Assembly (NCBI GenBank): GCA_009668925.1
Contig: SBEK01000017.1
Span: forward strand, 1 to 31,693
Origin: Deltaproteobacteria bacterium
Lineage (GTDB): Bacteria > Desulfobacterota > Syntrophia > Syntrophales > Smithellaceae
Reading direction: 5' to 3'
Length of the DNA: 31,693 nt
Position numbers and translations under genes: made by a program. Below the pieces are notes generated by a model, which made no database searches, was not told the DNA's origin, and was given only the letters and a program-made list of their open reading frames with translations. How positions within the stretch are numbered: position 1 is the first letter of the stretch; every line of letters starts with the position of its first letter. This document shows, in pieces, positions 13,938-30,588 of the stretch.

Positions 13938-15290
13938 ATGACCATTAAACGCAGAAATAAAATACAAAAGACACCCGTTTCCGGGACGGCAAGAAAACAG
14001 AGCCCCGTAAGTGGATTAAAATCCGACGCGGACGGGGTCGACCGCAAAGATGAAGTCTTTCTGAATCCCGAGGGAATGACTAGGCTGATGCTGGAAAACG
14101 CCAATGACGCTATTTATATCAACCAGGATCAATACCTCCAGTATGTCAATGCCAAAACGATTGAAATTACGGGCTATACGGAAGAAGAGCTTTTGACGCG
14201 CCCCGGCATGGACTTTATTCATCCCGACGATCGGGGTGTCATCTATGATCGCTATGTGAGGCGGTTTCGCGGCGAAATCATCCGCAGCGTGTATCCTCAC
14301 AGAATTATCTGTAAAAACGGCGATATTAAATGGATTGAAGTGAATACGGTGATGATCTCCTGGCGGGGCCGGCCGGCCGCCTTAAGTTTCATGAAGGACA
14401 TCACCGAGAAAAAGAAGGCGGAAGAAGCGCTTAAACAATCTGAGCGGGAGCTGGCCCAGATCATAGATTTTCTGCCGGACGCCACCTTTGCCATTAATAT
14501 CAGAGGCGAAGTCATTGCCTGGAATCGGGCGATCGAAAATCTGACCGGCATTGTTGCCCGGGATATATTGGGAAAAGGAAATTATGAATACGCTCGCGCT
14601 TTTTACGGAGAGAGAAATCCCATCCTGATTGACAGGGTTCTTCATCCGTCCATAGAGGTTGCCGAGGAATATCTTTTTTACGCCAATGAAAAGGACTCGC
14701 TCCTTGCCGAAACGCAGATATCAAAAAATGGAAAGACCATTTTTTTCTGGTGCAAGGCGAGCCCTATTTACGATCACCACGAAGCGGTCACCGGCGCCAT
14801 TGAATCTCTCAGAGATATATCCGCGTTAAAAAAAACGGAGGAGGAACTCAAGGCCAAGACCCGGAGTCTCGAGGAGATGAATACGGCCCTCAAGGTTTTA
14901 TTGAACCAGCGGCAAAATGACAGCCGTGAGATAGAAGAAAAACTGCTGCTCAATATCAAGGAATTGGTTCTGCCCCATATCGATAAACTGAAAGCCGCCG
15001 ATTTGGATTTTACTCTGGCCTCGCATTTGGATATTATCGAGAATAATTTGAAGGAGATTGTTTCTCCTTTTCTGATGAATATTACGGCGAAATATTCAAA
15101 TTTTACGGCCAGGGAAATACAGGTGGTCTGTCTTATTCGCGACGGCATGGGTACAAAAGAAATCGCCCGTGCGCTGAACATTTCAACAAACTCGGTGGAC
15201 ACATACCGGCAGACGATCCGGAAAAAGCTTGGATTAAATAAAAAGAAGGGCAATATCCGGTCCATTCTTCTATCCCTTGACAGACATTGA
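13938..15290 (+). CDS. PAS-PAS-LuxR transcriptional regulator
   Basis: A 450-residue soluble sensor-regulator. Residues about 48-160 form a PAS domain with its PAC end (LLTRPGMDFIHPDDRG, FMKDITEKKKAEEAL). Residues 165-295 form a second PAS domain (IIDFLPDATFAINIRGEVIAWNRA ... ESLRDIS). A coiled coil spans about 295-345, and a LuxR/GerE helix-turn-helix closes the protein (FTAREIQVVCLIRDGMGTKEIARALNIS, SVDTYRQTIRKKLGL). There is no kinase or receiver domain, so the PAS domains probably sense a small molecule or redox state directly. It lies immediately upstream of, and on the same strand as, the receptor and CoA-enzyme cluster and is the obvious candidate to control it. The ribosome site is weak (GGCAGACGATGAA). 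Confidence 0.88.
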   Translation: MTIKRRNKIQKTPVSGTARKQSPVSGLKSDADGVDRKDEVFLNPEGMTRLMLENANDAIYINQDQYLQYVNAKTIEITGYTEEELLTRPGMDFIHPDDRGVIYDRYVRRFRGEIIRSVYPHRIICKNGDIKWIEVNTVMISWRGRPAALSFMKDITEKKKAEEALKQSERELAQIIDFLPDATFAINIRGEVIAWNRAIENLTGIVARDILGKGNYEYARAFYGERNPILIDRVLHPSIEVAEEYLFYANEKDSLLAETQISKNGKTIFFWCKASPIYDHHEAVTGAIESLRDISALKKTEEELKAKTRSLEEMNTALKVLLNQRQNDSREIEEKLLLNIKELVLPHIDKLKAADLDFTLASHLDIIENNLKEIVSPFLMNITAKYSNFTAREIQVVCLIRDGMGTKEIARALNISTNSVDTYRQTIRKKLGLNKKKGNIRSILLSLDRH

Positions 15291-15499
15291 AGAATCGACT
15301 TTCGGCGTCCTGATGACCGGCTTCTTTCTCCCAATTTTCTTTCGGCGAATATGATAACAATACCATCATTTTTTCACTAGTTTTTCATCATTCCTTTCCG
15401 CCGAACCCTGTGTTTTATGATTATTCTTTGAACAAGAGGTCCGGAGATGCAGACGGACAAAGGACAACGGGAAATGGCAGCAAGCGGATACATCCCCGA

Positions 15500-15655
15500 A
15501 CGGTATTCGGAGTGGTTGAAGTGGCTTCGGTGGTGCCGGCGCCGGCAGCGGCCGTGATCCTGGCCGACTTAGGAGCCGCTGTGATCAAGGTGGAGGCTCC
15601 GGGCGGAGGTGATATTCATCGCGGGGGCCATCAGCTTCCGGCGTTGAGAAATTGA
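15500..15655 (+). pseudogene. N-terminal fragment of a CaiB/BaiF CoA-transferase
   Basis: About 51 codons read VVEVASVVPAPAAAVILADLGAAVIKVEAPGGGDIHR and then a HQLPALRN end. This is the first Rossmann segment of class III CoA-transferases (LEVA..VA.PAA..ILADLGADVIKVE). It stops at 15655 after roughly an eighth of a normal 400-residue enzyme. The frame is open from an ATG at 15410, but the first 30 residues do not look like the family. It differs in sequence from the full-length transferase at 17680, so it marks a different, lost copy next to receptor 1. Confidence 0.7.
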
Positions 15656-15750: not shown

Positions 15751-17226
15751 ATGAAATCAATGCTGAAGAAGATTTTGGCTTCTGTATGCGCGATTTCTTT
15801 TTTGCTGTTTATGGGTTTCGTCCCATCAACGGTCCATGCGGCCAAAGCAGAGAAACAGGACAAAGCTGTGAAAGCGGCGGTGAAGGGAGAGACTGCCAAT
15901 GCGGTTTTTGACGGCAAAAAAGTGTCGGATATGTCCGACTTTGACCCCAACAATCCGGTCATTCCCACAGGGGACACGATCAGGATAGCAGTTGTCATGC
16001 CCTTTTCGGGACCGGCGGCGCTGAACGGGGAAATGACTTTTCTTTATGTCCAATGGGTGGCTCACGATATCAACAAACGGGGAGGAATCTGGGTGGACGG
16101 TAAAAAGAAGCTGATTCAAGTGATCAAGGCCGATCACATGTCCAAACCCGACCAGGCCAAGAAGGTCTGCGAACGAATGATTCTCCAGGAGAAGGTTCAC
16201 GTCCTGTTCGGCACGGCCGGCAGCAACCTGATGAAGGTCATGATGGAGGTCGGCAACAAATACAAGACCATCGTCCACAACTTCGCCGCCCTGTCCGATG
16301 ATTTGATGGATGCCACGCAGTTTAACCGTTATACCTTCATGACCACCTATGACACCTCATCGCTCGGCCGCGGCATCGGTTATTATTTCGGGCAGATCCG
16401 AAAAAAGGAGAAAAAATTCTACATTCTCTGCCAGGACTATTCCTTCGGCCACGGCATGGCGGAAGGATTCAAGCAGGGCCTGAAAGAATATTATCCGGAA
16501 GCGCAGATCGTCGGCGAGGATTACCATAAACTATTTCTGACGGACTTTGCCCCTTACCTGACCAAGATCAAGGCCTCCGGGGCCGAAGCCGTTTATACGG
16601 GGGACTGGATTCCCGACCTCAGCAACCTCCTGAAGCAGGCGAGACAAAACGGGATTACAATCCCCTTTGCCAACAGAATCATGGACGACCCGGCTATGCT
16701 TTCGGAACTGGGCATCGAAGGTTCGAAAGGCCTGATCAACATCACTCAGGGAGAATACATCAACCCTCACTTCAGAACACCGGAGCAGATAAAGTTTCAC
16801 AAGGTGTGGACCGACCTGTGGAAAAATAAATGGACGAAGCCCTATAACAGCAGACTGATCGCCGATCCGGAGGGACAGATAGCCTCCTACCTGATGCAGC
16901 TTTACTGGCTCACGAGCGTTATCGAGCGGGCCAAGAGCACCGATCCGGAAAAGATCATCGCCGTCTGGGAGAATGACAGTTTCAAAACGCTGAGCGGCAA
17001 GGTTTTAAAAATGAGGTCCTGCGATCATAAGGTTATCCAGGATCTGTCCATCAGCGAGTTTGTGCCGCCGGATCAGCAGAAGGTTTCCTATAATATACCT
17101 CCTTATTACTGGTTCAATGATTGCTCCTATACGGGATATCTGCACGTCATCCCCGCGGCCAAAATCCTTCCGTGGATGGATCAGAAGCTGGACCGCTGTA
17201 AGGGAAAGAATGCGTGGGGGATGTAA
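15751..17226 (+). CDS. Periplasmic receptor 1, leucine-binding-protein family (ABC-type)
   Basis: A 491-residue exported type I periplasmic binding protein. A signal peptide (residues 1-30, cut after VHA) is followed by a Lys/Ala-rich stretch (31-58), then VSDMSDFDP and the binding fold from about 77: TIRIAVVMPFSGPAALNGEM, DINKRGGIWVDGKKK, and KKFYILCQDYSFG near 222-232. It ends in DRCKGKNAWGM. Cysteines near 140 (KKVCERM) and 227 and in RSCDHK, NDCSY and DRCKG recur in some or all relatives. The family normally serves LivHMGF-type importers of amino acids or aromatic acids, but no permease or ATPase is nearby. AAGGAGGGAG precedes the ATG. It is about half identical to receptors 2 and 3 by eye. 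Confidence 0.9.
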   Translation: MKSMLKKILASVCAISFLLFMGFVPSTVHAAKAEKQDKAVKAAVKGETANAVFDGKKVSDMSDFDPNNPVIPTGDTIRIAVVMPFSGPAALNGEMTFLYVQWVAHDINKRGGIWVDGKKKLIQVIKADHMSKPDQAKKVCERMILQEKVHVLFGTAGSNLMKVMMEVGNKYKTIVHNFAALSDDLMDATQFNRYTFMTTYDTSSLGRGIGYYFGQIRKKEKKFYILCQDYSFGHGMAEGFKQGLKEYYPEAQIVGEDYHKLFLTDFAPYLTKIKASGAEAVYTGDWIPDLSNLLKQARQNGITIPFANRIMDDPAMLSELGIEGSKGLINITQGEYINPHFRTPEQIKFHKVWTDLWKNKWTKPYNSRLIADPEGQIASYLMQLYWLTSVIERAKSTDPEKIIAVWENDSFKTLSGKVLKMRSCDHKVIQDLSISEFVPPDQQKVSYNIPPYYWFNDCSYTGYLHVIPAAKILPWMDQKLDRCKGKNAWGM

Positions 17227-17246
17227 AGACTATATTTAAGCCGGCA

Positions 17247-17283
17247 CGGCGCACCCGGAGTGATGATCACACCGGGTGCGCCG
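17247..17283 (+). terminator. Strong hairpin after receptor 1, no U-tract
   Basis: CGGCGCACCCGG (17247-17258) pairs perfectly with CCGGGTGCGCCG (17272-17283), and GTGAT pairs with ATCAC inside the loop. It begins 20 bases after the stop. It is followed by TAAGCAAGC rather than U's, so it may protect the 3' end or attenuate transcription rather than stop it fully. Confidence 0.6.
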
Positions 17284-17295
17284 TAAGCAAGCACG

Positions 17296-17568
17296 ATGGG
17301 GACTGTCCCCAATTTTCTGCAACACGGAAAAATGTCAGGACGATCGGAATCATTCCCCCCGGTAGGCACCTACCGTCGGAATAAAGAAGAATATCATGCG
17401 GCTCAACACATGTTCCGTTATGCCCCTGCGAATCGGCCGCAGATGAAACAAGCGGCCGAACGGATGGCCCATATCGGCGGTCGGCCCGGTGATCCCTTGT
17501 GCGGACCCATACCCGATGTCGCAGACGTTGCCACGATGCCGCCGATGGGTGAACCGTATGAACCGTAA
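17296..17568 (+). CDS. Doubtful small open frame, 90 codons
   Basis: The interval 17284-17679 has no recognised gene. This frame starts in the palindrome region and ends in a Met/Pro-rich stretch (MPPMGEPYEP). The part from about 17392 on has balanced codon use (HMFRYAPANRPQMKQAAERMAHIGGRPGDP) and might be a gene remnant. No ribosome site precedes the ATG and no family is recognised. Open frames also exist on the other strand here, so it may be chance. Confidence 0.2.
   Translation: MGTVPNFLQHGKMSGRSESFPPVGTYRRNKEEYHAAQHMFRYAPANRPQMKQAAERMAHIGGRPGDPLCGPIPDVADVATMPPMGEPYEP
17298..17310. repeat. GGGGACTGTCCCC palindrome
   Basis: A 13-base palindrome followed by AATTTTCTG. Similar GTCCCC/GGGGAC pairs lie at 13825-13846. 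The form suggests a dispersed intergenic repeat sequence. Confidence 0.4.
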
Positions 17569-17679
17569 CCGGGACGCAAACAGACATGATTCGGCAAATT
17601 GACTTGCTTTGTCGAGGAGAAGAGACAAGCCAGGGCGCCGTCAGAGTAAAACAATTAGAAGAACAGGAGATTATTTATA

Positions 17680-18963
17680 ATGGAAAGCATTAAACCGGGT
17701 CCTCTAGCCGATGTTACCGTACTGGACTTTACATGGGTGCTGGCGGGACCATACTGTACCAGGAATTTGACCGATATGGGCGCCAATGTGCTTAAAGTCG
17801 AAAAGTTCAAGATCGGAACCAATGAGCGTCATCAGGCGCGCCGCGTAGAAATAAACGGCGTGACGCAATGCTCGTATCACATTCACCAGAACCGCGGGAA
17901 GAAAAGCCTCTGCATCAATCTGAAGCACCCCCGGGGAATCCAGTTGATTCATGAGCTGATCAAGAAAAGCGATATCATTGTAGAAAATTTTGCCCCGGGC
18001 GTCATGGACCGGCTGGGTCTGGATTACGAGTCCGCGAAAAAAATCAAGCCTGATATTATCTACTGCTCCATTTCAGTCTTTGGACATTGGGGATACGACG
18101 TTAACCGGGCGGGCTATGACATCGTCGCTCAGGCGGCAAGCGGCTGGACCGCCGTGATGGAAGGCCATGAAATGGCACCCATGGCGATCGGCGATACAAC
18201 GGCCAGCATGCACGCCTGCACCGCCATTCTGGCCGCCCTGCATCACCGGGAGAAAACCGGCCAAGGGCAGAATATCGACATCTCCATGGTCGATTGCCTG
18301 TTCTCCATTCCCGAGACATCCTATCCCGCCTTCTGGATCAGCGAGGCCGCGGGCATCCCGCCTTTCAATTTCTCCGTCGCCCAGAAAAGCCCCACGTCTT
18401 CACCGTTCGGCATTTATAACGGTAAGAACGGCTGCATCGCCGTCGCCATGCTGACGGACAGCCGCTGGGCCGAGCTCGTGGACCTGTTCGGCCCCGGATA
18501 TGAATGGATGAAAACCGATCCCCGGACGCGGGACATTATCGGCCGCTGTGTTCCGGAAAATGCCCCTCTGGTGCATGAGGCCCTGGAATCCTGGGTCATG
18601 TCCCAGGATTCCGTCGAAGAAGCCGAACGCAAATTATTGAGCATCGGCGCGGCGGCCTGCCGCGTGAAGTCCATTGAGGAACTGGCCACGACGGACCCCT
18701 ACATCGGAGCACGGGAAATGAGGCTCAGGAAAGTGCAGCCTTTCATCGGGCCGATGACCATGGGAGGAAGCCCCCTGAAATTTTCGGAAACGCCGTCGAC
18801 CATCAGGGGCTATGCGCCGTTCCTGGGAGAGCATAACCGGCAGACCCTGCGAGGCGTCCTGGGGTATTCCGATGCACAGATTGATGAGTTCTACAAGGAA
18901 GATGTTATTTATCAGGATCCCGAGGTGGACGAGCTTCCCAATGAACTGAAAAAATATGAATAG
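17680..18963 (+). CDS. CaiB/BaiF-family (class III) CoA-transferase
   Basis: A 427-residue cytosolic enzyme of normal length. It moves CoA from an acyl-CoA donor to a carboxylic acid through a mixed anhydride on an aspartate. VTVLDFTWVLAGPYCTRNLTDMGANVLKVE (split over 12-41) is the N-terminal Rossmann start. NRGKKSLCINLKHPRG (71-86), IIVENFAPGVMDRLGLDY and GYDIVAQAASG follow. Asp172 in the MAIGDTTASMHACTAILAAL segment lies at the catalytic position of formyl-CoA transferase. The C-terminal part closes with FLGEHN, the usual signature. A modest AGAACAGGAGAT site precedes the ATG. Its stop is 27 bases before receptor 2, so they are co-transcribed. Candidate substrates are fatty, cyclic or aromatic acids; none can be fixed from sequence. 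Confidence 0.92.
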   Translation: MESIKPGPLADVTVLDFTWVLAGPYCTRNLTDMGANVLKVEKFKIGTNERHQARRVEINGVTQCSYHIHQNRGKKSLCINLKHPRGIQLIHELIKKSDIIVENFAPGVMDRLGLDYESAKKIKPDIIYCSISVFGHWGYDVNRAGYDIVAQAASGWTAVMEGHEMAPMAIGDTTASMHACTAILAALHHREKTGQGQNIDISMVDCLFSIPETSYPAFWISEAAGIPPFNFSVAQKSPTSSPFGIYNGKNGCIAVAMLTDSRWAELVDLFGPGYEWMKTDPRTRDIIGRCVPENAPLVHEALESWVMSQDSVEEAERKLLSIGAAACRVKSIEELATTDPYIGAREMRLRKVQPFIGPMTMGGSPLKFSETPSTIRGYAPFLGEHNRQTLRGVLGYSDAQIDEFYKEDVIYQDPEVDELPNELKKYE

Positions 18964-18990
18964 TGATTTCTAAATATAAGGAGGGAGTAA

Positions 18991-20466
18991 ATGAAACAAA
19001 GACACAGACAATGGATAAGTTTACTTGGTTTGGCAGCGCTCCTGCTCTGGACGGTGGTTAACGTTCCTTTGGCCCAGGCGGCCAAAGCCAAACCGGCCAA
19101 AGCCGTTTCCGGAACCATGGCCGAGAAGGTGGCCAAACCCCATGCGTTTTTGGATGTCAATAAGATGGGTGATATGTCCGATTTTGACCCGGCTACCTGG
19201 GTCAGCCCCACCGGCGATACAATCAAGATCGCCGTCTTCGGTCCCTTTTCAGGGCCGGCGGCGCTGAACGGTCAGATGTGCTGGCTCGAAACCAGCTGGG
19301 TGGCCCATGACATCAATAAGCGGGGCGGTCTCTGGGTGGACGGCAAGAAGAAGCTGATCGAGCTCATCAAGGCGGACACCATGTCCAAGCCGGATCAGTG
19401 CAAGAAGGTTGCCGAACGGATGGCCCTTCAGGAGAAAGTCCATATTTTCTGGGGAACCGTAGGCAGCAACATGACCAAGATCATCAACGAAGTGGGAAAT
19501 AAATACAAGATCATCGTGGCCAATCCCCTGGGGCTGGCCGATGAACTTCAGGATGCTGAAAATTTCTCGCGGTATGCGTTCATGACCGCGACGGCCACTT
19601 CTCAGATCGGCCGCGGTCTGGCGTACTACTACGGCCAGATCCGCAAGAAAGAGAAAAAATTCTATATCCTCTGCCAGGACTACAACTTCGGCCGTGAAAT
19701 CGCGGATGGTTTCAAACTGGGTCTGAAACAGTATTACCCCGAGGCGGAGATTGTCGGCGAAGACTACCACAAACTCTTCCTGACGGATTTTGCGCCCTAT
19801 CTGACCAAGATCAAGGCCTCCGGAGCCGAAGTCGTCTACAGCGGCGATTGGCCTCCCGATATCAGCAACCTGGTCAAGCAGGCCCGGCAGTTCGACATTA
19901 AAGTTCCGATTGCCAATGTTTACATGGATGACGCCAACATTTTGAATGAAATCGGCATCGAAGGCACGAAGGGATTGGTCCATTTCGATCAGTACAGTTT
20001 TCCGCCTCCGGTTTTCAACGCCCCGGCCTGGGCCAAGTTTCATAAAATCTGGAATGATCAGTGGAAGAAATGGAAGACTCCCCCATACAACAGCTTGAAT
20101 ACCATGCACGGCAGCCAGATCATGACCTTCGTCATGCAGACCTACTGGCTCATGAGCGTGATCGAGCGGGCGAAAAGCGTGGACCCCGAAAAGATCATCA
20201 AGGTCTGGGAAGGCGACACCTACCAGTACCCCAACGGCAAGATCGTTATGATGCGCCCCTGCGATCACCGGTCGATCCAGGACTTCAGCGTTGAAGAATA
20301 TGTTGAACCGGAAAAGCAGAAAGTGTCCTACAATATTCCTCCTTACTATTGGTTCAAAGGCTCATCGGCGCCAGGGCCGGCCTATTTGATTCCCGCAGCC
20401 AAAATATTTCCCCGCATGGATCCGAAATCTGATCGCTGCAAGGGAAAGAACGACTGGGGCGAATAA
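18991..20466 (+). CDS. Periplasmic receptor 2, leucine-binding-protein family
   Basis: A 491-residue paralogue of receptor 1. Signal peptide (cleavage after LAQA), a short Lys/Ala/Pro-rich stretch (AAKAKPAKAVSG), MGDMSDFDPATW, then the binding fold (TIKIAVFGPFSGPAALNGQM, DINKRGGLWVDGKKK, KKFYILCQDYNFGREIADG, GEDYHKLFLTDFAPYLTKIKASGAE). It has RPCDHR and the DRCKGKNDWGE tail, but the cysteine found in receptors 1 and 3 at the NDCSY/EGCSY position is replaced (KGSSAPG). The ligand-contacting stretches differ from receptor 1 (FDQYSFPPPVFNAP versus TQGEYINPHFRTP), which points to a different ligand. AAGGAGGGAG precedes the ATG. Confidence 0.9.
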   Translation: MKQRHRQWISLLGLAALLLWTVVNVPLAQAAKAKPAKAVSGTMAEKVAKPHAFLDVNKMGDMSDFDPATWVSPTGDTIKIAVFGPFSGPAALNGQMCWLETSWVAHDINKRGGLWVDGKKKLIELIKADTMSKPDQCKKVAERMALQEKVHIFWGTVGSNMTKIINEVGNKYKIIVANPLGLADELQDAENFSRYAFMTATATSQIGRGLAYYYGQIRKKEKKFYILCQDYNFGREIADGFKLGLKQYYPEAEIVGEDYHKLFLTDFAPYLTKIKASGAEVVYSGDWPPDISNLVKQARQFDIKVPIANVYMDDANILNEIGIEGTKGLVHFDQYSFPPPVFNAPAWAKFHKIWNDQWKKWKTPPYNSLNTMHGSQIMTFVMQTYWLMSVIERAKSVDPEKIIKVWEGDTYQYPNGKIVMMRPCDHRSIQDFSVEEYVEPEKQKVSYNIPPYYWFKGSSAPGPAYLIPAAKIFPRMDPKSDRCKGKNDWGE

Positions 20467-20515
20467 TATTTTTTTCGAAACGCGGCGGCAGGAAGCGTCT
20501 TGACCTCGGATAAAG

Positions 20516-20542
20516 AGCGGGAGCATTCCCCATGCTCCCGCT
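20516..20542 (+). terminator. Hairpin after receptor 2, no U-tract
   Basis: AGCGGGAGCAT (20516-20526) pairs perfectly with ATGCTCCCGCT (20532-20542) around TCCCC. It is followed by AAGAGAGATG, not U's. A second, weaker stem (AGGCCG 20661-20666 with CGGCCT 20685-20690) lies nearer the ligase start, so the ligase mRNA may have a structured leader. Confidence 0.55.
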
Positions 20543-20718
20543 AAGAGAGATGTATTGGGACATTCTCATAAGTCGCCCGCTTCTTTTGAATATATCCGGC
20601 AGCTCTGATGATGTTTGCCGCTGACGGATATTAGAATGAAACCGGGACTATACAACACAAAGGCCGGTCTTCGATCTTAGGGGTCGGCCTCTCCTCGATA
20701 GAAAGGATTTTTTTGCAA

Positions 20719-22380
20719 ATGGAAAAAAGAATCTGGCTTGACCGTTATGACAATGAAGTGCCGACCACACTCAGGTACCCGCGTCTGATCATTCCCGATG
20801 TGCTTCAGGTTCCGGCGAATGCTCTTCCCAACAAAAAAGCCATTATCTATGAAGGAACATCCCTGACCTTCTGGGAACTTCGGAAGCTCGTCTTAAAGAT
20901 GGCCAATTCCCTCACCGATCTCGGTGTGACCAAGGGAGAGCGCGTGGGGCTCCATTTGCCCACCTGCCCCCAGTACGTCATCGCCTTTCATGCCGTCCTG
21001 TCGCTCGGCGCGATCGTCGTCAATCTCAATCCCATCTATCCATCCGATGAGCTGGCCGTCATCGCGGAGCAATCCACCATTACAACGCTGATTACGATCG
21101 ACAAAGCTCTGCCCAATGTCCGAAGCCTCTGCGCGAAATTCCCCATTCCCCGCGTCATCGTTTCGGACTCCGATGATTTTACCAAGCCCGAACGGAATGT
21201 CCCGAAAGTGGCACTGGATAACGGATGGCACCATTTCCTGGATCTGCTGCCCGAAGGCAATACCGGTATGACCCGGGTGAAAGCGGACATCCGACCCGAA
21301 GACCCGGCGGTGATCCAATTTACGGGAGGGACGACGGGGATTCCCAAGGGCGCAGTGCTCACCCACAAAAATGCCATGGCCGCCATGGCCCAGACCACGG
21401 CCTGGAGCATGCCGAGGGTACGTCTGACGCCCATCGAGAGGCTCTCGACCCTGATCGTTTTGCCGCTTTACCATGTTTACGGGAATGTGGTTTCCACCTG
21501 GTCGCTTTACAACTGCGCGACTCAGATTCTGGTCCGGCAGTTTGAAATCGACAAGCTCATGGATCTGATCGAATCCATCGGTGAAATTACGTATTTTCCG
21601 GCCGTTCCCACCATGATCAGCGCCGTGATCAATCATCCCCGGGCCAGGGAGTTGGAAATCGGGAAGATGATCGGCTTCATGAATTCCGGCGCTGCGCCGT
21701 GTCCGGCGGAATTGATCGAGCAGGTCAGGGACGCCGGCATATTTCTCACGGAAGGATGGGGGATGAGCGAGACCACGGCCATCGGGATCAGCAATCCGAT
21801 CATGGGTGTAAAAAAGGTCGGCGGCATCGGCGTTCCCATCCCGGATACCGATATTAAACTGGTTGATCTGGAAACGGGCGAAACGGAAGTTCCCCAGGGG
21901 CAGCCCGGCGAGATCCTGATCAAAGGACCGCAGGTGATGAAGGAATACTGGATGAGACCGGAGGAGACGGCCGATCAGTTGAAAGAGGGATGGCTTTCCA
22001 CCGGCGACGTCGCCGTCATGGATGAAGAAGGGTACTTCTTTATCGTCGACCGGAAAAAAGACATGATCATTTCCGGCGGCTTCAATGTCTATCCCCGGGA
22101 AATCGACGAAGTGCTGCATCAGCATCCGAAGGTGGAAATGGCCGTCTCGGTCGGAGTTCCCGATGCTTACCGGGGAGAGTCCGTAAAGGCCTTTATTATT
22201 TTGAAGGAAGGGGAATCAGCGACGCCGGAGGAAATCATTGCTTTCTGCAAGGAAAAAATGGCGCCTTACAAAGTTCCCCGGTTCGTGGAGTTCAGAAAAT
22301 CTCTGCCTCAGTCCGCTGTCGGCAAGATCCTGCGCAAAACCTTGCGGGATGAAGAGGTGGCGAAGAATAAAGCATCCTGA
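20719..22380 (+). CDS. AMP-forming acyl-CoA ligase (FadD-like)
   Basis: A 553-residue member of the adenylate-forming superfamily that activates a carboxylic acid with ATP and joins it to CoA. The P-loop motif FTGGTTGIPKGA is near 201-212, the adenine motif GWGMSETTAIG near 346-356, and STGDVAVMDEEGYFFIVDRKKDMIISGGFNVYP (427-458) holds the hinge Asp and the A8 motif. The C-terminal catalytic Lys is in SAVGKILRKTLR. The length fits medium- to long-chain acyl-CoA ligases. The ATG at 20719 gives MEKRIWLDRY; a TTG two codons earlier is closer to AAGGA and cannot be excluded. It sits between receptors 2 and 3, 64 bases before receptor 3, and is a second, independent CoA-activation route beside the CaiB enzyme. 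Confidence 0.92.
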   Translation: MEKRIWLDRYDNEVPTTLRYPRLIIPDVLQVPANALPNKKAIIYEGTSLTFWELRKLVLKMANSLTDLGVTKGERVGLHLPTCPQYVIAFHAVLSLGAIVVNLNPIYPSDELAVIAEQSTITTLITIDKALPNVRSLCAKFPIPRVIVSDSDDFTKPERNVPKVALDNGWHHFLDLLPEGNTGMTRVKADIRPEDPAVIQFTGGTTGIPKGAVLTHKNAMAAMAQTTAWSMPRVRLTPIERLSTLIVLPLYHVYGNVVSTWSLYNCATQILVRQFEIDKLMDLIESIGEITYFPAVPTMISAVINHPRARELEIGKMIGFMNSGAAPCPAELIEQVRDAGIFLTEGWGMSETTAIGISNPIMGVKKVGGIGVPIPDTDIKLVDLETGETEVPQGQPGEILIKGPQVMKEYWMRPEETADQLKEGWLSTGDVAVMDEEGYFFIVDRKKDMIISGGFNVYPREIDEVLHQHPKVEMAVSVGVPDAYRGESVKAFIILKEGESATPEEIIAFCKEKMAPYKVPRFVEFRKSLPQSAVGKILRKTLRDEEVAKNKAS

Positions 22381-22444
22381 CTGCCGCCCCAGGGGAGGCA
22401 GAGGAATGAAACGATGAATGAACTTTTGAAAGGAGAGTTGGTAA

Positions 22445-23941
22445 ATGAAGAGTATCCGTAGTGTTGTTCTTTGTATCATGTGTTCTTTCTTAACGTTGTT
22501 CCTGGCGCTGCAAATTCCGCAGGCGGCCTTTGCCGCCAAGGCGGAGAAGAAGGCCAAAGTGGAAAAGGCGAAGGATGCCGTTCCCGGGTCCATGGAAGAA
22601 AAAGTAAAGAAAGCGATAGCGACGGTTGACTTCAGCAAAGTGAGCGATATGTCGGATTTTGATCCCGCCACGTGGGAGGGGCCGACCGGAGATGTCATCA
22701 AGATCGCCTACGTTAACGCCTTCTCCGGACCGGGCGCGCTGAATGGACAACTCCATGTGGCGCCGATCATGTTCGCCGTTCACGACATCAACAAGCGCGG
22801 CGGCATCTGGGTCGACGGCAAAAAGAAACTGATCACGGTCATCAAGGCGGACCACATGTCGAAAGCGGATCAATGCAAGAAGATCTGCGAGCGCATGGTC
22901 CTGCAGGAAAAAGTCCATATCCTGATGGGCACTTCCGGAAGCAACATGATGAAGATCATCAATGAGGTCGCCAACAAGTACAAAGTGATCGCCGTGAATG
23001 AGGGGGCGGTATCAGACGATCTGATGGATGCCACGAATTTCGGGCGTTATTCCTTTATGCCCTCCTTTTCGACCGAGCAGGTCGGACGCGGACTGGCTTA
23101 TTACTACGGCCAGATCCGGAAGAAAGAAAAGAAATTCTATATTCTGTGCCAGGATTATTCTTTCGGCCGCGGGATCGCCGACGGGTTCAAGAAGGGCTTG
23201 AAAGAATACTACCCGGAGGCGCAGGTTGTCGGAGAGGACTACCACAAGCTCTTCCTGACCGACTTTGCCCCTTATATGACCAAGATCAAGGCCTCCGGCG
23301 CGGAAGTCATTTACTCCGGCGACTGGACCCCCGACTCAGGGAATCTTCTGAAACAGGCGAGGCAGATGGGCATCAACATTCCCGTCGCCGATGTTTTTAT
23401 GAACGAGCCCAACGAACTGCATGATGTCGGGATCGAGGGAACGAAGGGGATTGTCAACATCGATCAGGCGGAGAGCTCACCCCGCTTCACCAATCCCGCT
23501 CAAATCAAGTTTTACAAGGCCTGGAACGACCAGTGGAAGAAATGGAAGAAAGCGCCTTACAACAGCCATCTCTTCGAGCATGCGGGCGGAAATCTCCAGG
23601 CGTATATGATGTATGCCTACTGGACCCTCAGCGTGATCGAGCGGGCCAAGAGCACCGACGCGGATAAGATCATACAAGTCTGGGAGAATGATACGTTCCG
23701 CCAGGCCAACGGCAAGATCGTCAAAATGAGAGCGTGCGATCACAAGGCGATTCAGGACATGTACGTGTTCGAGCTGGTTCCTCCGAAAGATCAAAAAATG
23801 AATTTCAATATTCCTCCCTATCACTGGTATGAAGGCTGCTCTTATTATGGACCCGGTTATCTGGTTCCGGCCGCGAAGGTTCTGCCGCAGATGGATCAGA
23901 AGTCGGACCGCTGCAAGGGAAAGAACGATTGGGGCGAATAA
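22445..23941 (+). CDS. Periplasmic receptor 3, leucine-binding-protein family
   Basis: A 498-residue paralogue with signal peptide (cleavage near AAFA), an extended Lys/Ala-rich stretch (AAKAEKKAKVEKAKDAVPG), VSDMSDFDPATW and the binding fold (DVIKIAYVNAFSGPGALNGQ, KKFYILCQDYSFGRGIADG, GEDYHKLFLTDFAPYMTKIK). Like receptor 1 it has RACDHK, EGCSYYG and DRCKGKNDWGE. The segment IDQAESSPRFTNPAQ differs from the equivalents in receptors 1 and 2, again suggesting a distinct ligand. GAAAGGAGAG precedes the ATG. It is 64 bases after the ligase, so it is probably expressed with it. No permease is adjacent. Confidence 0.9.
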   Translation: MKSIRSVVLCIMCSFLTLFLALQIPQAAFAAKAEKKAKVEKAKDAVPGSMEEKVKKAIATVDFSKVSDMSDFDPATWEGPTGDVIKIAYVNAFSGPGALNGQLHVAPIMFAVHDINKRGGIWVDGKKKLITVIKADHMSKADQCKKICERMVLQEKVHILMGTSGSNMMKIINEVANKYKVIAVNEGAVSDDLMDATNFGRYSFMPSFSTEQVGRGLAYYYGQIRKKEKKFYILCQDYSFGRGIADGFKKGLKEYYPEAQVVGEDYHKLFLTDFAPYMTKIKASGAEVIYSGDWTPDSGNLLKQARQMGINIPVADVFMNEPNELHDVGIEGTKGIVNIDQAESSPRFTNPAQIKFYKAWNDQWKKWKKAPYNSHLFEHAGGNLQAYMMYAYWTLSVIERAKSTDADKIIQVWENDTFRQANGKIVKMRACDHKAIQDMYVFELVPPKDQKMNFNIPPYHWYEGCSYYGPGYLVPAAKVLPQMDQKSDRCKGKNDWGE

Positions 23942-24031
23942 TCATCGCGTCTCCGGATCATGGAAAAACGCGGTGGGTATGGATAGACGGACAAAAACGT
24001 TTTGGACCTTAAACATGCAAGAGGTGAAGAA

Positions 24032-25366
24032 ATGAAAGTATCGCGGATGTCTCATCGACATGTAATGGTTTTTGCAGTTGCGTTGTTTTTTCTGTTGGCG
24101 TGCGGTCTGGGCGGGAGCACGGCCAATGCTTTCCAGCCGCTGAAGGGGGACATGTCCACCTTCATTCCGGGCAAATCGGATGTCCCCGTAACGGGGGACA
24201 CGATCAAACTGGGCGTCATCAATCCGTTCAGCGGACCGGGCGCCATCAGCGGTGAATTGTATTATCTGGCCGCGGCCTGGGTGGCCCATGATATCAACAG
24301 CCAGGGGGGGATTCTGGTCGACGGGAAAATGAAAAAAATCCAGATCCTCAAGGGCGATACGCAGACCAAACCCGATATCGCCAAAAAGGCGATCGAAAAA
24401 CTCGTCTTGCAAGACAATGTGGATGTGCTTGTGGGGACTTCCGGAACGCATATTACGCTCGTCGCCCAGATGATGGCCCGGGTGCACAAGAAGATCTTCA
24501 TGAACAACACCGCCTTTTCCGATCTGCTTCTGGACAAGGAAAACTGGAATCCCTACGTCTTCCAGGTGATGGCCCCCAATACGACGCAGTGGACTCTGGC
24601 CCTGGCCCAGTATTTCAAGAACCGCCCGGAAAAGAAGTTCTACATCCTGTGTCAGGATTATGCTTACGGCCATGCCTACGCCGAAACCTTCAAAGCCGCC
24701 ATCAAAAAGTACAAACCGGAAGCGCAGATCGTCGGCGAAGACTTCTTCCCTCTGTTCACGAAAGATTTTGCTCCGTACATTACCAAGGTTAAAGCAGCCG
24801 GCGCCGAGTTCATCATCACGCAGGCCTGGGCCGCGGATAATGAAAATCTGACGAAACAATCCCGGCAGCTGGGTTTGAAGATTCCCATTTCCAGCCTCTA
24901 TGTTGATGATACCCGAGGGCTGAGAGCGATCGGCGGTCCCGCCGGCGCCGGATTTGTCCTGGAGCAGTCGTATATTCCCACCATCAACACGCCGGCCAAC
25001 AAGAAGTTTGTCGAACTCTGGCATAAGCAATGGGGAAAGTGGTCGGCCCCCTACGATACGGATTTCTATAAATGGCCGGCCGGATTCGTGGGCAGCGGCG
25101 TCGTCAGTTTGTACTGTCTCTTCGACGTCATCCAGAAGGCCGGGACGACCAATCCGGACAAGATTATTAAGACGTGGGAAGGCCTGGAACAGCAATCCAT
25201 CATTGGTCCGATGTATATGCGGCCCCAGGATCATTTAATGCTCGGAGACATCTTCTTCAGTGAACTGGTCTTCCCCAACAAGTGGTTTGAACATAACGCC
25301 GGATGGGGCAGGACGATAACCATTCCCCGGGCCCTGTCCACTCCCCCGGTCATCAACGGGAGATAA
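24032..25366 (+). CDS. Periplasmic receptor 4, divergent leucine-binding-family protein
   Basis: A 444-residue, more distant paralogue. The ATG at 24032 has GAGGTG just before it; an upstream in-frame ATG at 24002 lacks a site. The signal region could be cut after STANA, or the LLAC at residues 21-24 could act as a lipobox and make it a lipoprotein. The Lys/Ala-rich stretch and the DRCKGKN tail of the other three are missing. A reduced form of the shared start remains (KGDMSTFIPGKSDVPVTGDTIKLGV), as do FSGPGAISGELYY and KKFYILCQDYAYGHAYAE. It is the last gene before a strong terminator and may bind another ligand or partner with a different complex. Confidence 0.88.
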   Translation: MKVSRMSHRHVMVFAVALFFLLACGLGGSTANAFQPLKGDMSTFIPGKSDVPVTGDTIKLGVINPFSGPGAISGELYYLAAAWVAHDINSQGGILVDGKMKKIQILKGDTQTKPDIAKKAIEKLVLQDNVDVLVGTSGTHITLVAQMMARVHKKIFMNNTAFSDLLLDKENWNPYVFQVMAPNTTQWTLALAQYFKNRPEKKFYILCQDYAYGHAYAETFKAAIKKYKPEAQIVGEDFFPLFTKDFAPYITKVKAAGAEFIITQAWAADNENLTKQSRQLGLKIPISSLYVDDTRGLRAIGGPAGAGFVLEQSYIPTINTPANKKFVELWHKQWGKWSAPYDTDFYKWPAGFVGSGVVSLYCLFDVIQKAGTTNPDKIIKTWEGLEQQSIIGPMYMRPQDHLMLGDIFFSELVFPNKWFEHNAGWGRTITIPRALSTPPVINGR

Positions 25367-25466
25367 ATAGAAGCCTGTAAAAGAAAAGTGAAGATGCCGC
25401 CGATCCGGTGAAGGACTTGGAAGCATCGGCAAGGCGGCAAAGAAATAAATCCTGTCGCAACGAAAG

Positions 25467-25497
25467 AGCCCGGGGATCATCTTCCCGGGCTTTTTTT
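25467..25497. terminator. Rho-independent terminator ending the receptor/CoA cluster
   Basis: AGCCCGGG (25467-25474) pairs with CCCGGGCT (25484-25491), and T's continue through 25497. It lies 100 bases after receptor 4 and just before the 3' end of the convergent hrpB gene. Confidence 0.9.
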
Positions 25498-25512
25498 ATC
25501 CGGGAGATCTTC

Positions 25513-28053
25513 TTACCGGCTGCGTCCCTTCGTCTTTCTTGTCGGAGGGGCGCTCCAGGGATCGTCGGGCCAGGGATGCTTCGGGTAGCGGCCCATGAGT
25601 TCTTTCTTGACCTGCGGGTAGACGGCGTTCCAGAATTGGCTCAGGTCCCGGGTGATCTGAACGGGCCGGCGGGCGGGCGAAAGAAGATGGAGAAGCAGTT
25701 TAATCCTTCCGCCGGCGATGGCCGGGGTGTCGGCAAGCCCGAACATCTCCTGGAGCTTGACGGCCAGGACCGGAATCTCGCCTGCAGCATAATCAATCGC
25801 GATGCTGGACCCGCTGGGGACGCCGATGGTCAGAGGCGCGCGCTCGGCTAGAAGGCGCCGCTGCTCCCAGGTGAGCTTCTCGGCGAGCGCGGGCAAAATG
25901 TTGAGGGCGGCAAGCTTCGCTTTGCTGCGGATTCCGGAGAGCCAGGGCAAAAGCCAGTCCTCGGGCGCCGCGAGAAGTGTCCGGGATGAGAGGTCCGGCC
26001 AGTCTTCTTCGGGAAAGGCTGTCCTCATCAGCCGCACACGGGCCTGAAACTGCAGGGCCTCGCGGCTGAAATGGACCCCGACGGCCTCCGACCGGATGGC
26101 GTCGCACAGAAGCGAAACGACTTCCTCGTCCTGCGGCTTTACGGGTCTTGCCGAAAGGATAATCGTTCCCACACGCTCTTCAACGGCGGCGGCAATGCGG
26201 TCTGCCTCTTTATCCCAGAAGACGCGCCGCCGGGTTTCGATTTGTTCACCCAGGGCTTCGCGGATGAGATCCTCTGTCAGCGGTTCAGCCATGTGCACCG
26301 TGCCTTCCGCCTTCTCGCCCTTGTCGACCACGGGAGCAATGATGTAGGGACTGCCGGCCGCGGGAATCCTGGCGGAGAGTCTCACCCCCCGGCCCTGCCG
26401 CAGAACATAGCGGCCGCCGTCTTCTTCGCGGCGCTTCGCGATGCGGTCGGGAAAGGCGAATAGAAGCAGGCGGGGGATCATGCCGCCTGCGGCATCGCCT
26501 GCCTTATCCTTTGTTTTGCCAATCAGGCTTTTCAGCTGGTTGGCTGTCGCCTCCACAGCGCGCAGGGCCCATGGGTCGGCCGCTCCGGCCGGCTTTTTGT
26601 CCCGCCGCCATTGTGTGAGCAGGTCGAGACGATCGCCAAGATCAAAGCCGCCAACCGGCTCCGCCGTTGCCGCGGGCCGCTGACGGATGATGTCCCGTTC
26701 GGATAGGAGCGCCGCGAGATCCGCTCCGAGCGACGGGCAGCGAAGCTCTGCCGCTTGCAAAAGCAGGCGGCCCAGGCGCGGATGAAGCGGCAGGCGCGCC
26801 AGGGAAACGCCGACAGGCGTAATCAAACCTTGGGCATCGAGCGCGCCCAGTTCTCCGAGCAGTTCCCCCGCCGCCCGCCAGGCCGCGGAGGGCGGCGGGT
26901 CCAGCCAGGAAAGTTCGCCCGGGTCTTTCACGCCCCAGGCGGCCAGATCCAGGACCAGTGACGATAAATCGGAAATAGCGATTTCCGGCGGGGCAAAAGG
27001 GATCAGGGATTGGAAGGTATGCCGGCTGTAAAGCCGATAGCAGACGCCGGGACCCAGGCGGCCCGCACGGCCCTGGCGCTGTATCGCCTGCGCCCGGGAA
27101 ACCGTGACCGTCACCAGGCGGTTCATGCCGGTTCCCGGATCGTACTTAAGCCTGCGGGTCAATCCGCCGTCAATCACCACGCGGACGCCTTCGATGGTCA
27201 GGCTGGTCTCCGCGATGTTCGTCGCGAGGACAATCTTTCGATGGGCTGCCGGCAGGATCGCCCGCTCCTGCTCGGCAAAAGGCAAATCGCCGTAAAGGGG
27301 ATGGAGCGATATGTCTCCCATGGCCCCGTCACGAAGCGTTTGGGCGAGGGCATCGTTTACGGCGCGGATTTCACCGGCCCCCGGCAAAAAGACGAGGATG
27401 TCGCCTTCCGTCTCTCCGAGCGCTTCTCGGACGACATCGGTTACGCGCGCCGTCAGGTGTTGATCGGGGTTGTCGCCGCAGTAGCGCTCCGCAACCGGGT
27501 AGGCTTGGCCCTGCGCGGTAATCACGGCCGCCCCGTCCAGAAGGGCCGCCACCGGCCCGCCGTCGAGGGTGGCGGACATGACGAGGATTTTCAGATCTTC
27601 GCGCAGGGCGCGGCGGATATCCAGGCAAAGAGCAAGCGCCAGGTCCGTCTGCAGGCTCCGCTCATGGAACTCGTCAAAAATAACCATGGCGACGCCCGGC
27701 AGATCAGGATTGGCCAGGATGCGCCGGGTCAGAATTCCCTCCGTCATCACTTCAATGCGGGTGCTAGGCGTTACCCGGGATTCAAACCGGATGGAATACC
27801 CCAGCGTCGCGCCGATCCCCTCGCCCAGGGTCTTCGCCATCCAGCGCGCGGCGGAGACGGCGGCAATCCGCCGGGGTTCCAGCATCAGGATGCGTCCTTC
27901 TTGAGGTTCCAGGTCATCGAGGAGCGCCAGAGGAACGCGCGTCGTCTTGCCGGAGCCGGGCGGGGCCTGAAGGACGCAGGCCCGATGCTCGCGAAGGGCC
28001 GCGCGCAGCTCCGGGAGAACGGGATCGATGGGGTAGGTTACATTCTTCGGCAT
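25513..28053 (-). CDS. hrpB: ATP-dependent RNA helicase HrpB
   Basis: An 846-residue DEAH-type helicase. Walker A APPGSGKTTR lies near 30-39, the DEAH-box equivalent IFDEFHERS near 125-132 (DEFH, as in HrpB), MSATLDG at 159-165, ATNIAETSLTIEGVRVVIDGG for motif V, and QRQGRAGRLGPG for motif VI. The long C-terminal half is the HrpB-specific region, ending in a basic tail (PTRKTKGRSR). The start ATG at 28053 gives MPKNVTYPIDPVLPELRAAL, which aligns with known HrpB starts; upstream in-frame codons to 28107 do not fit the family. No good ribosome site is visible. HrpB is a widespread helicase of poorly defined RNA role. It is convergent with the receptor cluster and monocistronic. Confidence 0.93.
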   Translation of the reverse strand: MPKNVTYPIDPVLPELRAALREHRACVLQAPPGSGKTTRVPLALLDDLEPQEGRILMLEPRRIAAVSAARWMAKTLGEGIGATLGYSIRFESRVTPSTRIEVMTEGILTRRILANPDLPGVAMVIFDEFHERSLQTDLALALCLDIRRALREDLKILVMSATLDGGPVAALLDGAAVITAQGQAYPVAERYCGDNPDQHLTARVTDVVREALGETEGDILVFLPGAGEIRAVNDALAQTLRDGAMGDISLHPLYGDLPFAEQERAILPAAHRKIVLATNIAETSLTIEGVRVVIDGGLTRRLKYDPGTGMNRLVTVTVSRAQAIQRQGRAGRLGPGVCYRLYSRHTFQSLIPFAPPEIAISDLSSLVLDLAAWGVKDPGELSWLDPPPSAAWRAAGELLGELGALDAQGLITPVGVSLARLPLHPRLGRLLLQAAELRCPSLGADLAALLSERDIIRQRPAATAEPVGGFDLGDRLDLLTQWRRDKKPAGAADPWALRAVEATANQLKSLIGKTKDKAGDAAGGMIPRLLLFAFPDRIAKRREEDGGRYVLRQGRGVRLSARIPAAGSPYIIAPVVDKGEKAEGTVHMAEPLTEDLIREALGEQIETRRRVFWDKEADRIAAAVEERVGTIILSARPVKPQDEEVVSLLCDAIRSEAVGVHFSREALQFQARVRLMRTAFPEEDWPDLSSRTLLAAPEDWLLPWLSGIRSKAKLAALNILPALAEKLTWEQRRLLAERAPLTIGVPSGSSIAIDYAAGEIPVLAVKLQEMFGLADTPAIAGGRIKLLLHLLSPARRPVQITRDLSQFWNAVYPQVKKELMGRYPKHPWPDDPWSAPPTRKTKGRSR

Positions 28054-28158
28054 GCGCGGAGTATAGAAGGCACAGCCGTTCGTGTCAACAGAATCAAAGC
28101 AACGCAACTTTTCTATTTAGCGAGGAGAAACATACAGCATGTGTCGCAATCCACTTTT

Positions 28159-28351
28159 GTCATTACGAGCACTCTCAGGCACAGCCTGCCCCGGCGAAGA
28201 TCGGGGGTGGTAATCTAACCCTCCATTCCTCCTCGCGAATGGCCGGGGCGGTAATCTTCTTTTCGTCATTGCGAGCGGACGCTCGGGCCGCGTGGGAATC
28301 TCTTTCCTTGCTTTGTCATTGCGAACCGCGCCTTGCGCGGTGTGGCAATCT
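28159..28351 (+). repeat. Tandem cluster of TCATTGCGAG...GTGGCAATCT palindromic repeats
   Basis: Three units are recognisable: 28159-28216 (diverged, TCATTACGAG...GTGGTAATCT), 28265-28301 and 28315-28351 (GTCATTGCGAACC...GTGTGGCAATCT). A partial unit lies at about 28231-28258. Each has ATTGC/GCAAT-type inverted ends and a variable GC-rich centre. An inverted copy occurs at 12844-12879. The spacing is irregular and the centres are not spacers, so this is not a CRISPR array. Confidence 0.7.
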
Positions 28352-28379
28352 AATTCTATTTCAAGATCTGAAAGGAACG

Positions 28380-28579
28380 CAGTTGCACCGGGGCATCCCA
28401 TTGCTTCGCATGCCCTGCAACTGTGGCTCTAAGGCTCATGGAGCGACAGCCAAGAACTCGCCCGATGGGCTCAAACAGTTTGGCTGTCTGATGCTCCATT
28501 TTGCCAAGAGCCACAACGCTTCAGGCATATTCGCTCACGGCAGGAACTCCGGCGCATGCCGGATGCCCCGGTTCAACTG
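28380..28579. repeat. Structured dispersed repeat, copy 2, complete with terminal inverted repeats
   Basis: A 200-bp element bounded by CAGTTGCACCGGGGCATC (28380-28397) and GATGCCCCGGTTCAACTG (28562-28579), inverted repeats matching at 17 of 18 positions. Inside are nested stems: TGTGGCTCT (28422-28430) with AGAGCCACA (28507-28515), ATGGAGC (28438-28444) with GCTCCAT (28493-28499), and GACAGCCAA (28445-28453) with TTGGCTGTC (28480-28488), topped by GCCC-GAT-GGGC. A separate stem CCGGC-GCAT-GCCGG lies near the right end. The right 150 bases match copy 1 at 2172-2321. It encodes no credible protein and resembles a MITE or REP-like element that forms a folded RNA or cruciform. Confidence 0.75.
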
Positions 28580-28678
28580 CTGTTTTCTCTTGCAATGCTT
28601 TTGAGAAGTTGTCTACTCTGTGTCCGTACTTAAGGACGTATGCCAGATTATCAATCCATCACTCTTTAACAAATCAAG

Positions 28679-28713
28679 AAACCCCCGCCGGATTGCAGTT
28701 CCGGCGGGGGTTT
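28679..28713 (-). terminator. Strong terminator for the epoxide-hydrolase-like gene
   Basis: A perfect 14-bp stem: AAACCCCCGCCGGA (28679-28692) with TCCGGCGGGGGTTT (28700-28713) around a 7-base loop. On the minus strand it follows the hydrolase stop by about 90 bases and is trailed by TTTCTTGATTTG. The repeat-rich gap 28580-28678 shows no gene. Confidence 0.85.
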
Positions 28714-28803
28714 AAGGCAGGTTTTAAATAATCACTATTGTGGAGAGAGGGCCGGGGCGCCGGTCCCTCTCTGTCTCATTCTCGTTGGCAGGTTCCGGTC
28801 GCG

Positions 28804-30276: not shown

Positions 30277-30588
30277 ATGAAAAAATTTCGGTTTGTTTTA
30301 GTATTGGGCGCGGCGGTTCTGCTCGCGGGATGCGCCATGCTGGTTCCCATGGGCAGTGTGTATACGGGCGTAAAATTACCCATGATGGCCACGGGCAACG
30401 GCAGTGCTTCCCCGAAGACGGGTGAAGCGACGTGCACGAGCGTGCTGGCCGTGGTTGCCGTCGGCGATTGCAGCATCGAAGCCGCCATGAAAAACGGCGG
30501 CATCACCAAAGTGAACCATGTGGATTGGCATGTCCAAAACATTCTGGGAATCTACGGAACTTACAAAGTGATCGTTTCCGGTGAATAG
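30277..30588 (+). CDS. TRL-like lipoprotein
   Basis: A 103-residue exported protein. The ATG at 30277 follows GGGAGGGGG; an upstream in-frame ATG at 30178 gives a Cys/Arg-rich leader without a site. The signal peptide ends in the lipobox LAGC (Cys19). The mature part, MGSVYTGVKLPMMATGN followed by GEATCTSVLAVVAVGDCSIEAAMKNGGITKVNHVD and GIYGTYKVIVSGE, matches the TRL-like small lipoprotein family: a repeated small-residue pattern with two cysteines that may pair. Function is unknown, probably envelope or stress related. It lies behind a good promoter and 89 bases before an acyl-CoA ligase. Confidence 0.78.
   Translation: MKKFRFVLVLGAAVLLAGCAMLVPMGSVYTGVKLPMMATGNGSASPKTGEATCTSVLAVVAVGDCSIEAAMKNGGITKVNHVDWHVQNILGIYGTYKVIVSGE

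Follow-up and report, generated by a model that had tools for sequence, protein, structure and literature searches.

How does a solute receptor that is encoded apart from any permease find its transporter? This long-standing open point is raised by a 31,693-nucleotide stretch of DNA from a member of the Smithellaceae (Syntrophales; Deltaproteobacteria bacterium, contig SBEK01000017.1), which we analyzed over its full length and call the window. On one strand it carries four periplasmic receptor genes, R1 to R4, interleaved with a CaiB-type coenzyme A (CoA) transferase and an acyl-CoA ligase. At a probability of roughly 0.72, we favor the view that R1 to R4 are satellite receptors for carboxylic acids, that they use one dedicated LivHMGF importer encoded elsewhere, and that the neighboring enzymes trap the acids. 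The bacterium is related to fatty-acid-degrading anaerobes. The cluster and its borders read as follows.

13938..15290, plus strand: PAS-PAS-LuxR regulator (Pfam PAS, PAS_9 and GerE)
About 15482..15610, plus strand: decayed N-terminal piece of a CaiB-type CoA-transferase (tblastn)
15751..17226, plus strand: R1, Peripla_BP_6 receptor (Pfam, E = 2e-52)
17244..17284, plus strand: strong hairpin directly 3' of R1, without a T-run (-38.4 kcal/mol, z = -6.2 over 17230-17300)
About 17398..17562, plus strand: decayed C-terminal piece of an HpaB-family (PF11794/PF03241) gene (tblastn, E = 6e-14)
17680..18963, plus strand: CaiB, class III CoA-transferase (Pfam CoA_transf_3, E = 4e-89)
18991..20466, plus strand: R2, Peripla_BP_6 receptor (Pfam)
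20516..20542, plus strand: hairpin 3' of R2, without a T-run (-22 kcal/mol, z = -3.9 over 20500-20550)
20713..22380, plus strand: AMP-forming acyl-CoA ligase, FadD-like (Pfam AMP-binding and AMP-binding_C)
22445..23941, plus strand: R3, Peripla_BP_6 receptor (Pfam)
24032..25366, plus strand: R4, a more distant Peripla_BP_6 receptor (Pfam, E = 8e-65, scored from 24002)
About 25462..25497, plus strand: terminator-like hairpin with a T-run, between R4 and a convergent hrpB (-24.7 kcal/mol, z = -3.6 over 25455-25505)

The ligase probably starts at ATG 20719. For R4, ATG 24032 is the more likely start when the sequence is read by eye; TTG 24002 had been chosen in an earlier, sequence-only reading of this DNA. 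That reading had described four receptors of one family with CaiB and the ligase on one strand and no permease or ATPase among them, a PAS-LuxR regulator in front and a terminator behind, and gene positions, Pfam and our Liv models agree with it on these points. Hidden Markov models (HMMs) of LivH, LivM, LivG and LivF, built from the genes of relatives, had no match at E = 1e-8 among window open reading frames (ORFs) of at least 90 amino acids, and a Pfam scan of 28 window ORFs returned no transporter family. LivHMGF was thus not found within the 15.7 kb upstream or the 6.3 kb downstream of the cluster that the window spans.

The evidence for a shared importer comes from relatives. Across ten genomes, the receptor subfamily gave 39 matches of at least 360 bits, followed by one 200-bit fragment and then by matches of 190 bits or less. 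We then sampled 155 genomes of the order to which one relative, G007, belongs. R2 has matches in 17 of the 155 at E = 1e-150 (44 matches) and R4 in the same 17 at E = 1e-80 (46 matches). One clade of LivH is present in exactly these 17 genomes, with 19 rows of 384 to 656 bits, the next row scoring 272, and not one of the 155 genomes has the receptor without it. Receptors total 46 against 19 LivH. Eight genomes have one of each and two have two of each; the remaining seven have a single LivH, with receptor-to-LivH ratios of 10:1, 8:1, 5:1, 4:1, 3:1, 2:1 and 2:1. In a tree of 46 LivH proteins, the receptor-linked ones form one 35-row clade (97% in the Shimodaira-Hasegawa-like approximate likelihood ratio test, SH-aLRT), and 11 others, most of them from the same genomes, fall outside it. 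Eight of the 19 LivH matches contain one or two stops within the matched interval. A further genome from outside the 155, G002, also has the receptor together with LivHMGF. The sequence-only reading had offered a shared distant transporter as one possibility; the co-occurrence in 17 of 155 genomes and the many receptors per LivH in seven of them lend it strong support from relatives, and the importer in the window organism itself would follow by extension.

In the reading we favor, R1 to R4 would be satellite solute receptors of one LivK-like subfamily, each with its own ligand, that dock on one dedicated LivHMGF importer, its genes lying elsewhere on the chromosome, and hand it carboxylic acids. 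Once imported, the acid would be converted to a CoA thioester, and so trapped, by the adjoining CaiB transferase or ligase, receptor and enzyme being presumably matched in substrate. The CaiB route would draw CoA from another thioester without ATP; the alternative would run through the AMP-forming ligase. Carboxylic acids are the likeliest ligands because acyl-CoA enzymes recur as receptor neighbors. The prediction can be tested: one LivH clade, confined to the receptor-bearing genomes among those searched, would be the shared port for all of the receptors.

Could the receptors instead dock promiscuously on several permeases? Nine receptor-bearing genomes (G001, G003 to G005, G007 to G009, G011 and G012) have 15 to 40 BPD_transp_2 matches each, and some receptors of tripartite tricarboxylate transporters (TTT) are encoded beside TRAP subunits, according to a part of PMC5994714. 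The receptor set nevertheless follows one LivH clade exactly, and other LivH, of 272 bits or less, occur in genomes without the receptor too. We therefore consider promiscuous docking unlikely.

The receptors themselves are full-length, open reading frames. R1 to R3 are 61.7 to 65.6% identical to each other and R4 is 39 to 42% identical to them. Pfam assigns all four to Peripla_BP_6, Peripla_BP_5 and ANF_receptor only, and domain and fold place them with HAAT/COG0683 LivK-type receptors; adjoining LivHMGF genes, another mark of that class, were not found among the window ORFs. TctC is the domain name of the Bug/TctC receptors of TTT systems, and Pfam found no such domain in R1 to R4. Where a source names such receptors, they are labeled only as binders of branched-chain or branched-subunit amino acids. 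The predicted structure of R2 is confident (predicted local distance difference test, pLDDT, 92.4). At its N terminus a helix (residues 2-23) is followed by a low-confidence linker, and AxA-like sites, possible marks of an export signal, were picked out by eye. The model resembles binders of leucine, 4-hydroxybenzoate, vanillate and p-coumarate, and also of urea (UrtA, within the first six Foldseek rows) and amides (AmiC). Because it resembles LivK-type proteins in general, the fold alone cannot pick a ligand. Binding loops are less alike among R1 to R3 (identity 0.54) than the rest of the protein (0.68), and R1 retains 0.91 loop identity with its orthologue. The same contrast appears in all liv-linked pairs (0.53 versus 0.64) and in orphan pairs (0.53 versus 0.66).

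Linkage to a transporter was followed in a tree of 71 receptors, made by quick search. R1 pairs with an orphan orthologue, L073:9686 (86% identical), and R3 with another, L017:7461 (70%). R4 pairs with L079/L083 (73%); its 72-73% identical orthologues in genomes G003 and G008 both sit on short contigs, and each immediately precedes a ligase. This orphan state looks inherited in R1, R3 and R4, because the R1 and R3 orthologues were scored as lacking nearby Liv genes and those of R4 sit on short contigs. R2 stands alone in the tree and has a 91% identical relative in the protein database. Relatives of R2 and CaiB recur on contigs of equal size, for example of 226,668 bases (91% for both) and of 14,921 bases (70 and 75%), which suggests that R2-like and CaiB-like genes are linked there. 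Liv-linked and orphan receptors are strongly clustered: four changes suffice for 57 labeled rows, and every one of 500 shuffles scatters the labels more. The orphan label required a contig that extends 3.5 kb or more to either side, and 14 of the 71 rows, on short contigs, stayed unlabeled. L093 and L100 were changed by hand from liv to orphan, having a weak lone ATPase match only; L105 is labeled orphan despite LivHM about 7.6 kb downstream of the receptor, and L017 despite divergent Liv genes nearby. Recent tandem duplication of R1 to R4 was rejected, the four belonging to separate lineages. Immediately 5' of the R1 orthologue, L073:9339-9674 is the C-terminal fragment of an R2-like receptor (77%).

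The gaps between genes divide the cluster. They measure 453 bp (R1 to CaiB), 27 bp (CaiB to R2), 246 bp (R2 to ligase), 64 bp (ligase to R3) and 90 bp (R3 to R4), which gives three blocks: R1, CaiB-R2 and ligase-R3-R4. Since the two long gaps each carry a hairpin, and since decayed CaiB and HpaB-family pieces also occur, the cluster is probably not one operon, and a single long operon found no support. Consensus scans barely exceed shuffles (promoter 11 versus 9.2, terminator 19 versus 16.1). The stable hairpins after R1 and R2, lacking T-runs, are perhaps mRNA-stabilizing ends that raise receptor levels. The CaiB remnant upstream of R1 covers residues 5-47 (best tblastn E = 2e-6), and its gap drew 85 matches at E = 1e-3 from 121 CaiB queries. 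The HpaB-family remnant was matched by two of six HpaB-family queries, those of L084 and L081; the L084 gene immediately precedes an orphan receptor, the L081 gene a receptor whose contig is short. As these remnants sit in the gaps, they suggest that enzyme-receptor cassettes have been gained and lost here. The cluster would grow and decay by enzyme-plus-receptor units: CaiB remnant with R1, an HpaB-family remnant before CaiB-R2, and ligase-R3-R4.

Remnants would also be expected if the receptors were debris of broken-up liv operons with no present role. Two decayed enzyme pieces lie within the cluster, the R2-like fragment lies 5' of the R1 orthologue at L073, one subfamily copy (G005:C11) has an internal stop, and there is the 200-bit fragment. 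Against this, all four window receptors are intact, the orthologues of R1, R3 and R4 have been kept at 86, 70 and 73% in other genomes, and R2 combines a 91% relative with a confident predicted fold (pLDDT 92). Debris is thus an improbable account of R1 to R4.

We next consider the neighbors in relatives, taken from 64 related loci found by scanning genome contigs with the four receptors; their titles are mainly Syntrophales, Smithella, Desulfobacterales and other deltaproteobacterial metagenome-assembled genomes. LivH comes after the receptor in 27 of the 64, the Desulfobacterales loci included, usually with M, G and F. The Syntrophales relatives have a home receptor copy with LivHMGF, and the vicinity of their remaining copies, the satellites, lacks Liv genes. 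At six loci (L078, L082, L086, L092, L098 and L102) the order is Liv genes, CoA-transferase A, CoA-transferase B (PF01144 twice), receptor. Acyl-CoA enzymes recur beside many of the satellites and in a mixed run.

L074: ligase, acyl-CoA dehydrogenase and enoyl-CoA hydratase, then three tandem receptors
L083 (R4 lineage): acyl-CoA dehydrogenase, receptor, ligase
L084 and L104: two HGD-D dehydratase subunits and HpaB
L085 and L101: OYE, receptor, CaiB
L088: receptor, ligase, receptor
L099: PAS-LuxR, ligase, receptor
L100: ligase with HGD-D-like and BadF/G-type genes
L105/L023: receptor, ligase, ECH, HpaB and LivHM(G) as one same-strand run

From L105:6244-8136 onward, a PAS sigma-54 activator is followed on the same strand by receptor, ligase, NMO, SDR, ECH, HpaB and LivHM. 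Conservation of the arrangement, expected from the sequence-only reading, was thus found in part: receptor-ligase-receptor (L088), PAS-LuxR-ligase-receptor (L099) and receptor-CaiB (L085, L101) recur, and the exact order was seen nowhere else.

The proximity of enzymes and receptors was counted in six of the ten genomes scanned. Of 34 subfamily receptor matches, 8 have a CaiB or ligase match no more than 1 kb away, against 0.78 expected under uniform placement. All 34 score at least 360 bits; two of them (G009:C22 and C23) are incomplete copies at the ends of contigs that probably represent a single gene. As a control we used 39 listed Peripla_BP_6 genes of the same genomes from outside the subfamily, out of roughly 107. 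Within 500 bp the count is 6 of 34 versus 0 of 39 (Fisher p = 0.008) and within 1 kb 8 of 34 versus 3 of 39 (p = 0.10). Ligase rows were entered by hand from 150 of 160 listed, and five that share a contig with a receptor but lie over 2.5 kb from it were omitted. A ligase neighborhood specific to this subfamily holds at 500 bp only, of the three distances.

One locus captures a change of state. Genomes G012 and G007 share a cluster with HpaB (92% identical), ligase (86%), NMO (92%) and receptor (78%). In G012, LivHMGF lies between the receptor and a gene with a 4HBT-thioesterase-like counterpart in G007, and the corresponding G007 gap has no Liv match at E = 1. Because the copy with liv genes falls within a group of orphans in the tree, the change may have been either a loss in G007 or a gain in G012. 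A contig titled Candidatus Rokubacteria (L034) carries a receptor of the same subfamily, 55% identical, with Liv genes, hinting at inter-phylum transfer or misbinning.

What the enzymes act on is left broad by their matches. CaiB carries CoA_transf_3 over residues 9-386 of 427 (profile 1-366 of 366), as a class III (CaiB/FRC) transferase does, and its sequence matches in the PDB are formyl-CoA, succinate-HMG and benzylsuccinate CoA-transferases. All seven of its NCBIfam matches fall under their cut-offs (best 204 versus 442 bits), so that no substrate equivalog was assigned. The ligase has the AMP-binding and C-terminal domains of AMP-forming acyl-CoA ligases and matches fatty-acyl and coumarate ligases; it scores below the cut-offs of all 25 listed NCBIfam models, out of 106. 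By sequence, the relatives of both are too distant to name either substrate. The closest CaiB relative in G003 (L123 / G003:C54:2860-4137, 72%) has two internal stops, and stop-free relatives exist in G009, G008 and G001.

The regulator bears on another possibility, that ligand binding in the periplasm serves signaling to a regulator, for instance PAS-LuxR, rather than transport. It lies directly upstream of the cluster, and a 44% identical homologue heads the PAS-LuxR/ligase/receptor run at L099; for TTT receptors, a sensory use of orphans is proposed in a part of PMC5994714. Pfam finds only PAS and GerE-type DNA-binding domains in the regulator and no membrane domain, so no trans-membrane signaling route was seen, nor did the ORFs scanned in the window yield a membrane sensor coupled to a receptor. 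Of the 155 genomes, 39 have PAS-LuxR homologues at E = 1e-60, 36 of these 39 lack the receptor, and within the 155 the receptor is always accompanied by the LivH clade. Sensing or extracellular capture, which the sequence-only reading had floated, gained no support, and we regard sensing as quite unlikely. The least likely explanation is a complete transporter operon just past the window or an unrelated permease nearby: the window does stop 6.3 kb after R4, but the cluster is closed by the terminator-like hairpin and convergent hrpB, the larger Pfam-matched genes at about 4.9-12.6 kb are on the opposite strand, and neither Pfam (28 ORFs) nor the Liv HMMs found a transporter.

Several observations weigh against satellite receptors served by one importer. 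The LivHMGF evidence comes from relatives, not from the genome of the window organism. The 17 genomes are related and the co-occurrence figures are uncorrected for ancestry; linkage of LivH to the home receptor accounts for part of them, and the LivH tree was flagged with a long-branch warning. The binding-loop contrast is weak, with 121 of 2000 random block sets as low, and its cleft contact positions come only in part from a LIVBP alignment. Within 2.5 kb the proximity difference is absent (8 of 34 versus 9 of 39 other Peripla_BP_6 genes). Other neighbors occur at L075 (a guanylate-cyclase-domain gene, upstream), L089 (Band_7) and L095 (hrpB), and many satellite neighbors were left unclassified. 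Finally, ligase, CaiB and PAS-LuxR neighbors are drawn from different subfamilies, so a strictly conserved receptor-enzyme pair is lacking. We inspected the neighborhoods of the top homologues in the order (four CaiB, four ligase and six PAS-LuxR), and the closest do not lie beside subfamily receptors; for the regulator, the closest (56%, G007:C84) has no receptor nearby. On these positions, strict orthologous pairs of receptor with ligase, CaiB or regulator were rejected.

How does this fit with known systems? LivJ and LivK share one importer. Orphan substrate-binding proteins that share an importer have reportedly been described by Thomas (2010, 'Homes for the orphans'). As with those orphans, the receptor genes here lie apart from the transporter that they presumably serve; unlike them, relatives have as many as ten receptors for one dedicated LivH, and many of these receptors adjoin an acyl-CoA enzyme. 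Orphan receptors are common and LivK-type receptors beside CoA ligases are on record, as parts of PMC3223731 state, and the sequence-only claim that such receptors are normally encoded with their transporter goes too far. The same parts of PMC3223731 describe COG0683 receptors of Rhodopseudomonas palustris: RPA1789 (p-coumarate) beside p-coumarate-CoA ligase, and RPA3723-3725 (fatty and dicarboxylic acids) beside PimA, pimFABCDE, with RPA3725 71 and 60% identical to the other two. There, too, LivK-type receptors, three closely related in one case, lie near AMP-forming CoA ligases. In those accounts the receptors have ABC transporter genes adjoining them or close by, whereas none was found within the window, and here CaiB plus ligase are interleaved.

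Receptors far outnumber membrane components in Bug/TctC systems of Bordetella, Cupriavidus and Rhodoplanes as well: parts of PMC5994714 and PMC5812351 give up to 181 receptors versus at most four membrane components in Bordetella and, for Rhodoplanes, 434 substrate-binding proteins with nine in full operons. Those receptors belong to another family and transporter class (TTT), and the terms CoA and CaiB are absent from the main text of both papers. Closer to home, LivHMGF operons of Syntrophales and Desulfobacterales with CoA-transferase A/B (PF01144) or ligase share the receptor subfamily and a CoA-activating enzyme; unlike them, the window copy has no transporter genes. Since the consulted parts of PMC3223731, PMC5994714 and PMC5812351 describe such receptors or orphan sets, the kind is already known, and the hub-and-satellite organization is a new variant. 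Among the best literature matches listed, none is a published hub-and-satellite set with CoA-activation cassettes in Syntrophales relatives.

With somewhat less than even odds, the system may be a plug-in uptake platform of these anaerobes, in which as many as ten diverged receptors share one dedicated LivHMGF and small cassettes open up new carbon sources. Each cassette would pair a receptor with a single CoA-activating or acyl-CoA-processing enzyme and bring no new membrane protein. The neighbors of a receptor provide an initial clue to its ligand, and such clues would aid uptake annotation in uncultured anaerobes of this group.

Downstream of the cluster, window positions 25513-31693 hold hrpB and a ligase gene truncated by the window end and resemble L095, where the slot next to hrpB is filled by a receptor of a different lineage; the hrpB-adjoining slot is common to the window and G007 (hrpB 76% identical). 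On the minus strand upstream, positions 4014-4748 carry a HepT-like RNase gene adjoining a small nucleotidyltransferase gene, which we take to be the make-up of a HepT/MNT toxin-antitoxin pair. Also on the minus strand, 10417-12573 encodes a 718-amino-acid protein with an N-terminal cupin, a radical SAM and a weak SPASM domain, and a TOD1/MUCI70 glycosyltransferase-like gene (9399-10349) adjoins it.

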